A stretch of 64,000 nucleotides of DNA from Fibrobacter sp. UWR2. GTDB taxonomy: Bacteria > Fibrobacterota > Fibrobacteria > Fibrobacterales > Fibrobacteraceae. This document shows positions 46,485 through 50,380 of the stretch, in pieces. How positions within the stretch are numbered: the stretch's first letter is position 1; every line of letters begins with the position of its first letter. The notes under the pieces were generated by a model. That model made no database searches. It worked only from the letters and a program-made list of their open reading frames with translations, and had not been told where the DNA came from. The DNA is taken from contig NZ_MWQE01000001.1 of NCBI RefSeq assembly GCF_002210285.1, forward strand, positions 1 to 64,000. Reading direction: 5' to 3'. The position numbers were made by a program, and so were the translations under genes.

Positions 46485-47249
46485 CTACAGTTTTTTGAAC
46501 AAATCGAGCACATTTTGGGGGGTGTTCAGGTTCTCGAGTTCCCTGAGCGCCTTTTCCGTGGAGGCTACGTCTATCTGGCCGGGGGCCTGTGCCTGCCCGA
46601 TGGAGGCGTAGGTGAGATTCGCGCCTTCTTTCAGTGACCAGATACGGCTTGCCTTTCCGGTTTCGCCCATCCCGAAGGCGGCGAACAGACTGAACTCGTG
46701 CGAATGGATGCGGGTGAACTTGTACAGGCGATCGCAGTCGGTTTCGCTGTTGCTCATGGCGGCAATCTTCAGGCCGTCCGCCTTAAGGCGCAGGCAGTCG
46801 CGGGCGAAGTCGTCGAGTTCCTGCTGGTTCGGTACGCGCAAGAAGTTGTGCTGTGACACGAGAATCCTTGTCTTGCGCATGTCGGCGAGGCTTTTCAGGT
46901 TCTTGAAATCGTACAGGCAGTCCTGTTCCAGGTCGAGCCATTCGGGCACTTCGCTTTCGCCGAGAATCTTCGACCAGAGCGGGATGCGAGAGTACGCGTC
47001 CTTGTCGGGGAACTTGCCACCGTCGCGCGCAAGCCTGATGGTGCCGATCTGCATGGCGTGTGGGGCAATCTTCCTTACGCGGGCAGAAAGTCCGGTCCAG
47101 TCTTTCTCGCTAAAGAGGTCGTAGCGAATCTCGAGTGCGTTGCACGCCCCGATGTCAAGGAACACGGGGTGCATGCTGTCAGCTTCGATTGCGGAGAGGA
47201 CTTCGGGGTCGACCAGACCGACCAGATATTTTTCGTTGCTCGCGGGCAT
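46485..47249 (-). CDS. aroD: Type I 3-dehydroquinate dehydratase
   Basis: 254 residues, the normal length for AroD. It dehydrates 3-dehydroquinate in the shikimate pathway. Catalytic His is in ILVSQHNFLR (about residue 129), Schiff-base Lys in DGLKIAAMSNS (about 158), and the C-terminal substrate-binding block GMGETGKASRIWSLKEGANL is followed by ASIGQAQAPGQIDV. The early R-E region (TIRLARDGGKFPD) is a shorter match than in E. coli. ATG 47249 is chosen; upstream frame to 47318 lacks a start with support. A TATATT box lies only 6 nt before this ATG on the - strand. Confidence 0.82.
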   Translation of the reverse strand: MPASNEKYLVGLVDPEVLSAIEADSMHPVFLDIGACNALEIRYDLFSEKDWTGLSARVRKIAPHAMQIGTIRLARDGGKFPDKDAYSRIPLWSKILGESEVPEWLDLEQDCLYDFKNLKSLADMRKTRILVSQHNFLRVPNQQELDDFARDCLRLKADGLKIAAMSNSETDCDRLYKFTRIHSHEFSLFAAFGMGETGKASRIWSLKEGANLTYASIGQAQAPGQIDVASTEKALRELENLNTPQNVLDLFKKL

Positions 47250-47387
47250 GCGATAAATATAGTTATTCGCAGAAAGAGAATGTTTCTTTTTGTTTGGGTT
47301 TGTTGTTTTTGCGTTCAACAGTTTTTACGTAAAAAAATACCTTGCTTTTTTGAATAGAGTTTATATTGAAAAAAAATGGAGCGCTCT

Positions 47388-49337
47388 ATGAAATCGATTA
47401 AACTGCCAATGATGGCGATTCCCGCTATTTTAAGCCTTCTAGCGTGTTCTGAGGGCAATGGACCGGTTGCTGGACCCGACGATGGAGGGATGGGTGCGGA
47501 GTACCCTTTTTCTAGCAGCGTAGGCTTTGATGGCGGAATTTCTGGAACGGAAGTTCCCGTTGACGGTTTTTCCAGCTCGAGCATTTTCGTTCCGGGCGCA
47601 GAAGTTTACAGTTCTAGCAGCGTCATTCCCGGTTTTGGTGCCTCCAGTTCGAGCATCGTGGGCCCGGGCCCTGTTTTTTCCAGTTCAAGCGTCGTGATTC
47701 CCAGTAACGCGGGCGACGACGAGAACGACAACGAAGATGCGAGAACGCTGAACGGCACGCAGATTCTTTTGAAGCTTGCGGGGACGACGGCTACCGTGGA
47801 AAACAACAACGGCTGTGTCGAGATTGCAGATAAAGTAGCGACTATCACGTGTCCGGGCGCCTATTACGTTACCGGCGAATCATCCGATTTCCAGGTCGTG
47901 GTGAACACTCCGGCGACCGATAACGAGGGCAATACCGGCATTTACCTCTATAATGCGACATTGAAGAGCAGCAATTCGCCCATCCTCGTGAAGAACGCCG
48001 ACAAGGCGGTGCTCCACTTGGTGAAGGGAACCACGAACGTTGTGGAAGACGGCAACGGCAATCACGTGTTTACCAAGGTTAACGGCGCGCAGGATACATC
48101 AAAGGCCGCGATTTATTCTAGGGACGACCTGAACATCAAGGGTGCGGGTAAGTTGACAGTGAATGGCAAGTTCAAGAACGGCATCCAGTCGAGCAACGAT
48201 CTCAAGATCAAGAACGGCGACATTACCGTGGTTGCAACCGACGATGGTATCAGAGGCAAGGGCAGCCTCCAGATTTCGGGTGGAACGCTGAACATCACGG
48301 CCAACAATGGCAACGGCCTTAAAAGCGACGAATGCGAGGAAAATCCCGATGGCAGTTTCAAGGACACTGTGGCGAACAAGGGCTTCGTGAAAATTACAGG
48401 TGGCGACATTACCATCAAGGGGCGCAAGAGCGGCATCAAGGCGACCAATTACATTGATGTGAGCGACTCCACCGAACCTTCGACCATCAAGATTGAATCT
48501 CCCAACAAGGGGATCTCTGCCGAAAAGTTCATCTATGTCAACGGCGGCACCATCGACGTGAAGTCGGATTCCTCCGCAATCCGTACCAACTGGCGTGTCT
48601 ACATGAACGCCGGCGACGTGACCATCTCGACAAAGAAGAAGGGCATTCATGCGGATTCCGCCATTTACCTGAAGGGCTCCACGGTCAACGTCGTTACCTC
48701 TCTCGAGGCCATAGAGGCCTACCAGATTTTTGCCGAGGGCGGAGTCACCTCCGTGTTTGCGACAAACGACGGCTGGAACGGCGGTGGCGGCCCCAAGAAC
48801 CAGAATAGTTCCATGGCCATGTTCAGCGAGAGCAGCGGCTATATCACCATCAGCGGCGGCTACCACTACATCAGCGTGAAGGGCAACATGGTTGACGGGC
48901 TAGATGCCAACGGTACCGGAAAAATGACCGGCGGCGTGGTGATTGTCGAAATCACCGGCGAAAGCTACGAGAGCCAGGGCGGCGGTTTCAACTTCGGCGG
49001 TGGCTGGAGCATGCCGGGCATGGGCGGCCAGCAAGGCGGCGGAAACAACTGCGGGGCCTACAACTTTGCCGGGGGGCTTATCGATACCGACGACGGATTT
49101 TCAATTACTGGCGGCACCCTCCTCGCGTTCGGCAACTACACGATGGATGTTCCCGGATGTACGGCCCTGACCTACAACAACAGCAACTACTACGGTTCTA
49201 GCAGTGCGGCGGTCAAGCCGACTCACCAGGGCAACTACATTCTGTACGGCGGGTCTGTGCAGTCGGTGTCGCAGGTAAATACCACCGGCATGAAGGAATT
49301 CAAGTTCCCCAACGGCGTGAGCTACATGTACAAATAG
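47388..49337 (+). CDS. Cthe_2159-like carbohydrate-binding beta-helix lipoprotein
   Basis: 649 residues. Lipoprotein signal (LSLLAC, Cys about residue 19), a Gly/Ser-rich spacer with repeated SSS clusters (about 40-115), then a long right-handed beta-helix of the DUF4353/Cthe_2159 type: rungs such as DDLNIKGAGKLTVNGKFKNG, IQSSNDLKIKNGDITVVATD and FVKITGGDITIKGRKSGIKA. The Clostridium founding member binds acidic plant polysaccharide with calcium, so this one may bind pectin-like glycans. ATG 47388 has GGAG 6-7 nt upstream; an in-frame ATG at 47376 lies 8 nt after a TATATT box and would give a leaderless product 4 residues longer. Confidence 0.82.
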   Translation: MKSIKLPMMAIPAILSLLACSEGNGPVAGPDDGGMGAEYPFSSSVGFDGGISGTEVPVDGFSSSSIFVPGAEVYSSSSVIPGFGASSSSIVGPGPVFSSSSVVIPSNAGDDENDNEDARTLNGTQILLKLAGTTATVENNNGCVEIADKVATITCPGAYYVTGESSDFQVVVNTPATDNEGNTGIYLYNATLKSSNSPILVKNADKAVLHLVKGTTNVVEDGNGNHVFTKVNGAQDTSKAAIYSRDDLNIKGAGKLTVNGKFKNGIQSSNDLKIKNGDITVVATDDGIRGKGSLQISGGTLNITANNGNGLKSDECEENPDGSFKDTVANKGFVKITGGDITIKGRKSGIKATNYIDVSDSTEPSTIKIESPNKGISAEKFIYVNGGTIDVKSDSSAIRTNWRVYMNAGDVTISTKKKGIHADSAIYLKGSTVNVVTSLEAIEAYQIFAEGGVTSVFATNDGWNGGGGPKNQNSSMAMFSESSGYITISGGYHYISVKGNMVDGLDANGTGKMTGGVVIVEITGESYESQGGGFNFGGGWSMPGMGGQQGGGNNCGAYNFAGGLIDTDDGFSITGGTLLAFGNYTMDVPGCTALTYNNSNYYGSSSAAVKPTHQGNYILYGGSVQSVSQVNTTGMKEFKFPNGVSYMYK

Positions 49338-49798
49338 CAATCTGTACGAAACTTTCTAAAAATCGTATGAGCTGTTCTAAATTACGGACTAAAGTGACTT
49401 CCGTAGTCATTTAGTCCGTAAAATCGATGCTCATTTTTAGCTCAGAAGTTAACCTTTACGGACTAAAATAGCCTTTGGGGGTGTTTAGTCTGTAAAAATT
49501 CTGATTTATTACTTTGTTATAAGTGAAATATTTTGCAATCGGACGGAATTTTACGGACTAATACGCGACCCCGCTGTATTTAGTCCGTAAAGCAACCCGC
49601 GGGCACCCCTCTGGCTGTCGCAAAATTACGGACTAAATCGACACCCCCCTGCAAAAAGTAGGTAACGCCGGCAAAAATTCTGTGATAATATTGGTGTCGC
49701 GGGCGTAATAGGCGGCACGCGAACGTCGCGAACCCAGCCTGTAGCGTAAAGACCGAGGAATAAATTTCTAAATTGTACCTGAACAAAAAGGATTTATT
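49338..49798. other. Non-coding region with phased inverted-repeat array
   Basis: About 460 nt with no credible gene. Most of it, 49,382-49,665, is occupied by the inverted-repeat array described separately. The last 130 nt hold the leader and AAAGGA ribosome-binding site of clpP. No tRNA, riboswitch or insertion-sequence end is seen. Confidence 0.7.
49382..49665. repeat. Array of 12-bp inverted repeats (TTACGGACTAAA / TTTAGTCCGTAA)
   Basis: Four units, each with arms 12 nt long and exactly 16 nt apart. Unit 1 is 49382-49393 and 49410-49421, perfect. Unit 2 is 49456-49467 and 49484-49495, one mismatch. Unit 3 is 49551-49562 and 49579-49590, one mismatch. Unit 4 is 49626-49637 with a degenerate partner at 49654-49665 (7 of 12). 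Dyad centres are 74, 95 and 75 nt apart, close to 7, 9 and 7 turns of the helix. Unit 1 has an additional inner pair TGACT/AGTCA. Spacers of units 3 and 4 share a C-rich core. No CRISPR features. Confidence 0.9.
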
Positions 49799-50380
49799 AT
49801 GGCCGATTGTAACGAGAAGAAAGAGAACCAAGTTCCCGAGATGATGAAGAAGGCGGAAGAATTCCTCGCCTCCAAGCGCCGCATTTTTTTGTGGGGCGGT
49901 GTCGATGATGAGAGCGCCGAACGCATTGTGAAGCAGCTTCTGTACCTCGATTCGCTGAACCACGAAGACATCGTGTTCTTCATCAACAGCCCGGGCGGCG
50001 TGATTTCCAGCGGCCTTGCCATCTACGACTGCATGAACGCCATTGAAAGCGATGTCGTGACGGTTTGCTGCGGCCAGGCGGCTTCCATGGGCGCCGTGCT
50101 CCTCACTGCCGGTGCGAAGGGCAAGCGCATTGCATGGCCGAACGCCCGCATCATGATTCACCAGCCGCTCATCCACGGCGAAATTGTGGCGCCTGCAAGC
50201 GATATCCAGATCCAGGCCGAAGAGATGCTGCGCATCCGTGGCATCACGGGCAAGATCCTTGCCGAGACTTCGGGCCACACGATCGAGGAAATCGACCGCG
50301 ACACCGAACGCGACAACTTCATGAGCGCCGAAGAGGCCAAGGCATACGGCCTGGTCGACAAGGTCGAAAGCCTGGTTTAA
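49799..50380 (+). CDS. clpP: ATP-dependent Clp protease proteolytic subunit
   Basis: 193 residues, mature length. Catalytic triad: Ser in CCGQAASMGAVLL (S96), His in ARIMIHQPL (H121) and Asp in DTERDNFMSAEEA (D172). The conserved VFFINSPGGVISSGLAIYD block is present at about residues 59-77. It forms the barrel that degrades proteins fed by ClpX or ClpA. No tig or clpX neighbour is present; it is followed by ftsY after 15 nt. The repeat array lies upstream. AAAGGA precedes the ATG by 6 nt. Confidence 0.96.
   Translation: MADCNEKKENQVPEMMKKAEEFLASKRRIFLWGGVDDESAERIVKQLLYLDSLNHEDIVFFINSPGGVISSGLAIYDCMNAIESDVVTVCCGQAASMGAVLLTAGAKGKRIAWPNARIMIHQPLIHGEIVAPASDIQIQAEEMLRIRGITGKILAETSGHTIEEIDRDTERDNFMSAEEAKAYGLVDKVESLV

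Follow-up and report, generated by a model that had tools for sequence, protein, structure and literature searches.

What does a regular series of inverted repeats do in the intergenic region before clpP, and does it belong to that gene at all? We addressed this question by analyzing a window of 64,000 nucleotides (the whole stretch of DNA under study), the Fibrobacter genome that contains it, and related genomes. Upon inspection of the window, positions 49382 to 49665 comprised three complete palindromic units and a half-degenerate fourth, in which a unit consists of the arms TTACGGACTAAA and TTTAGTCCGTAA on either side of a 16-nt core, and the start-to-start distances are 74, 95, and 75. The features are as follows:

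47376 to 49337, plus strand: gene for a Cthe_2159-type carbohydrate-binding domain protein, upstream of the array; it adjoins clpP here, not in the closest relatives.
49382 to 49421, no strand: palindromic unit 1; arms 49382 to 49393 and 49410 to 49421, both exact; 16-nt core GTGACTTCCGTAGTCA.
49456 to 49495, no strand: palindromic unit 2; arms 49456 to 49467 and 49484 to 49495, the right arm with one mismatch (TTTAGTCTGTAA); GGGGG in the core.
49551 to 49590, no strand: palindromic unit 3; arms 49551 to 49562 and 49579 to 49590, the left arm with one mismatch (TTACGGACTAAT); CCCC in the core.
49626 to 49665, no strand: half unit 4; left arm 49626 to 49637 exact, right arm 49654 to 49665 (AAAAGTAGGTAA) matching at 7 of 12 positions; CCCCCC in the core.
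49799 to 50380, plus strand: clpP, downstream of the array; the array before clpP is not kept in relatives.

A sequence-only reading of this DNA had described four units with an invariant 16-nt inner spacing. Its distances were correct, and its description of the units holds for the three complete ones; the fourth is a half unit, too degenerate for its inner spacing to be judged.

The array was absent from all 29 clpP loci of relatives that we examined, and two of these loci carried a palindrome array of another family upstream of clpP. We therefore rejected a clpP operator; to judge from these comparisons, the window array is not a clpP feature. The two foreign arrays (L219 and L223, the clpP loci of G053 and G001) have the arms TTACGTCAAA and TTACGTGAAA, with spacings of 210 and 199, and occupy the same position as the window array. 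The neighborhood itself also differs: in this genome the Cthe_2159-type gene sits between a minus-strand gene (46485 to 47318) and clpP, whereas in close relatives the counterpart of that minus-strand gene appears directly beside clpP, with apparently no Cthe_2159-type gene there.

A genome-wide family of palindrome arrays

We searched the whole genome (3.28 Mb in 20 contigs) for the arms. The exact 12-mer occurred 53 times, compared with 0.4 expected and 2 for a reversed control, and the units totaled about 38, spread over about 15 intergenic sites. All 16 units with two exact arms had a core of 16 nt, although gaps of 10 to 24 were allowed, and the central core positions were 61–75% G among 36 distinct cores, each turned to its G-rich strand; thus, the G-rich core noticed in the window is a genome-wide property. 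The spacings of units across the genome (74, 85, 95, 136, 158, and 168) correspond to about 7, 8, 9, 13, 15, and 16 helical turns. The arrays lie between genes, mostly 12 to 270 bp past a stop codon and in many cases flanked by convergent genes, which is not where promoters are expected. Such copies at about 15 places, mostly behind gene ends, argue against a single operator or a single partition locus, both of which the sequence-only reading had considered, and the multi-site protein-binding reading survives in its phased spacing. The REP-like reading likewise stands for the scattered copies and fails on the fixed core length and phased spacing, which ordinary REPs do not have.

The scattered arrays of this genome have their arms in common, and mostly neither their cores nor the intervening DNA; thus, recent copying of a single element does not seem to be their origin, and we rejected a simple copy-and-paste of whole arrays on this ground. 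Tandem duplication clearly enlarged some arrays. No target-site duplication was identified.

A linked nuclease gene and the phasing of the arrays

Beyond the reach of the sequence-only reading, where contig C3 begins and beside purA, two copies of the array flank a gene that the genome encodes once. The last positions of contig C6 (174644 to 174698) and the first of C3 (1 to 55) are identical over 55 bp, inside an array; these ends look like an assembly graph break, and C6 probably carries the continuation of the left array at the nuclease locus. The product is an uncharacterized PD-(D/E)XK-type nuclease of 286 amino acids. No match to it was found among Pfam and NCBIfam families or in a sequence search of the PDB, which led us to reject a known protein family, and matches to PHROG remained below threshold; no transposase family matched the linked gene either. 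In the alignment of homologues, the RSKSE and WEH motifs were invariant and PDF nearly so (N for D in one member), the conserved residues being E179, D210 (the position with N in one member), E225, and H226. In the predicted structure (mean pLDDT 88.8), the N-terminal part is a coiled coil that includes a small sheet, and a nuclease domain forms the C-terminal part. This domain resembled the catalytic domain of I-Bth0305I (Z 8.3, rmsd 2.8, 91 residues aligned), TnsA and Bax1 (both Z 7.8), and Vsr (Z 6.5). Since these matches are nearly tied and Z scores near 8 can reflect a common arrangement, we claim only a PD-(D/E)XK-type fold, to which the conserved acidic residues conform; cleavage is putative. 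The N-terminal part of the model has a coiled-coil hairpin, with three strands between two long helices. We considered an arm-binding (AP2-like) domain as in lambda integrase, a three-stranded sheet plus helix, and the fold search gave no clear match in the PDB. The gene is under purifying selection, as its dN/dS of 0.12–0.27 between homologues indicates.

It is mainly the C-terminal nuclease domain that recurs on viral contigs (L196 to L203) and in plasmid hits (H1 to H8), which suggests that this domain is common to other systems. We rejected a phage origin because the viral contigs matched mainly the nuclease domain and none carried an array in our search, and a plasmid-borne element because the plasmids carry the nuclease domain alone, within larger AAA ATPases or helicases.

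Homologues of the nuclease were present in 14 of 41 Fibrobacter-related genomes, with up to seven per genome, and at more than 580 places in a set of species-representative genomes, the best 80 of which belong to Fibrobacter, Treponema, Lachnospiraceae, and Clostridiaceae; many of the genomes compared are metagenome bins. A palindrome array lay within 900 bp of the nuclease gene in 75 of the 107 loci read, upstream of it in 65 of those 75, compared with 1 of 58 control stretches taken 2.4–3.3 kb upstream and none in shuffled sequences. About a third of the homologue loci, mainly from Lachnospiraceae, lacked an array by the search used, which counts against a partnership of nuclease and array. 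The arms are family-specific (for example, TTACATACTAAA, GGGGCGTATAAA, CGTACCTATAAA, or TTACGGACGAAA), no bases outside the arms are conserved across families, and some species carry several independent families per genome. The two-unit arrays of L032, L034, L042, and L043 (about 200–210 bp each) have the variant outer arms GACAGACTAAA and TTTAGTCTGTC and inner motifs near TTAGTTTGTNNGTA in common, their middle parts being unrelated; they look like a sub-type. Behind the array of L042, at about 2330 to 2390, we observed a short terminator-like sequence near CCGGATTTGAATCCGG, dozens of copies of which occur in relatives; it is apparently an unrelated dispersed repeat.

Because tandem duplication can make equal spacings within one array, we counted distinct or single spacings per array in the analysis of phasing. 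For 97 distinct spacings from 61 nonredundant nuclease-linked arrays, 10.55 bp was the best of all periods in a scan from 6 to 30 bp, with R 0.896 (Rayleigh p about 1e-34), and R stayed at or below 0.364 in all of 2000 random sets; when each array contributed a single spacing, p was about 3e-22. Scattered arrays taken alone were also phased, both in this genome (R 0.947, n = 19) and in a second family with GGGC-type arms (R 0.92, n = 37). The core has a regular center as well: four identical central bases were present in 25% of 209 units compared with 4.5% in shuffled cores (at most 11% in 1000 shuffles), the tract being G in this genome and A in the GGGC and Treponema families. Phasing had been taken as a sign of protein binding at the window site, and the 61 arrays give strong support to this suggestion well beyond it; from the sequence pattern, we strongly infer that a protein binds the arms.

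Divergence, gain, and decay of the arrays

The distance between arms and the distance between nuclease proteins were correlated (Mantel r 0.34, reached in 0 of 5000 permutations), also among pairs below 55% identity (r 0.21, 0 of 5000), and linked inheritance rather than recognition could account for part of this covariation. Genomes that encode the cognate nuclease have scattered arms, and other genomes have almost none. In Treponema, we found 20 units in four arrays in the cognate genome and none in eight other genomes. Of the GGGC type, we counted 29, 21, and 5 units in the three genomes whose nuclease is of that type, a further 18 in three other genomes, and none in 35 (Fisher p 0.002). 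One of the genomes with GGGC units is that of the window itself, where this second palindrome family has the arms GGGCRTATAA, a spacing of about 85 bp, and eight near-intact units in three arrays (L267 to L269):

C1, 673738 to 673862: GGGC-family array.
C2, 95747 to 96041: GGGC-family array.
C2, 257750 to 257874: GGGC-family array.

No cognate nuclease for these eight units was detected in this genome, and they may be relics of an earlier specificity. Near-intact units without a detected cognate nuclease count against the partnership reading and imply that decay after loss is not immediate.

Comparisons between relatives point to constraint on the arms and to gain or loss of arrays. In an orthologous array of two related genomes, the arms were identical at 102 of 104 positions, the cores at 50 of 63, and the flanks at 80%, with the spacings 84, 86, and 84 unchanged. 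For two arrays of this genome, relatives with the corresponding gene pair had no array between the two genes; in one case this was true of all relatives in which the pair could be joined, and in the other of G048. One Fibrobacter clade of nucleases occupies the purA locus, between purA and a moxR-type ATPase gene. At this locus, G018 carries four units and the nuclease; G013 carries one complete unit and a half remnant and no nuclease (this genome is 77% complete, so absence elsewhere in it is uncertain); and G008 retains only a half arm, with no match to the nuclease and no unit of that type genome-wide.

From this comparative evidence, we estimate a probability of about two in three that the phased palindrome arrays are the binding sites of a cognate PD-(D/E)XK-type nuclease. 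Besides the points noted above, the unshared cores and intervening DNA of the scattered arrays, the lack of an identified target-site duplication, and the N at D210 in one member speak against it. The window array would then be one of about 15 scattered arrays of 40-bp palindromes bound by this protein. Each unit would be a dimer site with two inverted arms of 11–12 bp, a core of fixed length, and a central homopolymer of G or A; units placed 5 to 20 whole helical turns apart would put neighboring dimers on one face of the DNA, where direct contact or looping could bring them together. The specificities of nuclease and arms would diverge together, with specificity changing fast, arrays would be gained at new intergenic places, and sites would erode once the nuclease is lost. 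From sequence we also infer that this protein is an active nuclease and is responsible for array gain, for which a cut within the core, mended by recombinational repair, is one possible route. The repeats form a scattered family present in several bacterial phyla, and the whole looks like an undescribed partnership of a putative DNA-cutting protein with its own binding sites; we found no earlier description of such a partnership in the open-access literature. A wider proposal, to which we give somewhat less than even odds, is a selfish or domesticated nuclease-repeat system in at least three phyla, in which dimeric nucleases with a fast-changing target of about 12 bp would keep their own phased array and seed cognate arrays chromosome-wide, the purA locus in Fibrobacter having been occupied by nucleases of different specificity that left relic arrays behind. 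A nuclease-array system of this kind, if real, would be a second, unrelated route by which chromosomes acquire populations of short palindromes and an enzyme to match; it would not depend on RAYT transposases and would extend such repeats to phyla where they have been little studied. A sharp physical prediction can be drawn from the strict helical phasing, and the many nuclease-arm pairs would form a natural catalogue of specificities and targets, in which a recognition code would become directly testable.

Alternative explanations and known systems

A free-standing homing element is a doubtful but serious alternative. In such a scheme, the nuclease would cut gene-free arrays, repair would copy an array-gene-array cassette into them, and recombination between the flanking arrays would drop the gene and leave solo arrays, as with solo LTRs, so that the window array would be a relic. 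In four loci, the gene stands between two directly repeated copies of the array (92% over 269 bp in L078, 92% over 209 bp in L031, 80% over 312 bp in L128, and 80% over 108 bp in L071), an arrangement that would fit either homing or recombination with solo arrays as its product; solo units also occur where a relative has the gene, and the nuclease domain resembles I-Bth0305I, in a near tie with TnsA and Bax1. However, a homing gene lies within its own recognition site and its carrier is immune, whereas here intact units lie beside the gene, at the very locus where a homing nuclease would normally destroy them. Moreover, the orthologous clade stays at the conserved purA locus with no movement, most arrays were never seen with the gene, and homing does not need helical phasing.

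Host regulation, in which an autoregulated DNA-binding regulator would keep a nuclease fold and the scattered arrays would be the operators of its regulon, is unlikely. It agrees with the mostly upstream position of arrays at the nuclease gene (65 of 75), with helical phasing typical of cooperative operators, and with arms that look constrained between species; it sits poorly with scattered arrays located for the most part past stop codons or between genes that converge, with sites that turn over between relatives, and with putative catalytic residues that are nearly invariant. We consider a nucleoid-organizing or partition-like system, whose protein would bridge phased arrays, quite improbable. 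The phasing, the scattered clusters, and the N-terminal coiled-coil hairpin of the model would suit such a protein, but the arrays are lineage-specific, 14 of the 41 genomes searched have the system, and several independent families share a genome in some species; a parS- or centromere-type site would have a stable, conserved location, whereas these arrays turn over between relatives.

Tandem structured RNAs, which the sequence-only reading had listed, would be transcribed hairpins, for example guides or 3' stabilizers, and we regard them as very improbable. Three of the units form good folds, whether as RNA or as single-stranded DNA (z −4 to −7), and the cores vary as loops do, but any near-perfect palindrome folds well and whole-turn spacing across phyla is not expected of RNA; there was no match to Rfam at gathering score in the window array or in 10 nuclease loci, and a known RNA was rejected because the only hit was a chance sub-threshold match to MIR2655 (E 0.67). 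Scattered extragenic palindromes, some of them clustered, would suit ordinary REP/BIME elements mobilized by a RAYT transposase. This reading is barely credible here given 40-bp units whose core is fixed, arrays that are phased, no base conserved beyond the arms, and a linked gene of PD-(D/E)XK type rather than a Y1 transposase.

Several known systems resemble the proposed nuclease-array partnership in part. The candidate phage-defence proteins PDC-S68 of PADLOC contain a match to the C-terminal nuclease domain of the present protein (E 1e-23 to 1e-28), but these models exceed 1200 residues, whereas the present protein has 286, with its own N-terminal domain and repeats. In the lac, AraC, and lambda CI looping operators, dimer sites are spaced in whole helical turns, as are the dimer sites predicted here; the present arrays differ in being scattered, lineage-specific, mostly behind genes, and tied to a nuclease family. 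I-Bth0305I and the Vsr-like EDxHD/PD-(D/E)XK homing endonucleases provide the best structural neighbor and share the cassette-like direct repeats of some loci, whereas here the sites form multicopy arrays beside the gene and at scattered gene-free places, with no intron or intein context at the loci read.

The closest known system is REPIN-RAYT (REPtron), in which RAYTs are single-copy and vertically inherited (PMC8049555) and TnpAREP co-evolved with its REPs (PMC8266576). Both systems appear to combine a chromosomal gene with cognate scattered extragenic palindromes, here 53 exact arms and about 15 intergenic places, and in both the palindrome co-diverges with the enzyme, as the correlation of arms and proteins suggests (r 0.34, 0 of 5000). 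The REPIN-RAYT enzyme is a Y1/HUH transposase, whereas the gene linked to the present arrays is of PD-(D/E)XK type; the present repeats consist of 40-bp palindromes arrayed at whole-turn distances, tens of units in number, with several families in some genomes; and no tetranucleotide tag of the GTAG/CGTC type was seen here, the families sharing no bases outside the arms. By analogy, then, the nuclease-array partnership behaves like REPIN-RAYT, and it is not a member of that system because both enzyme class and site architecture differ.
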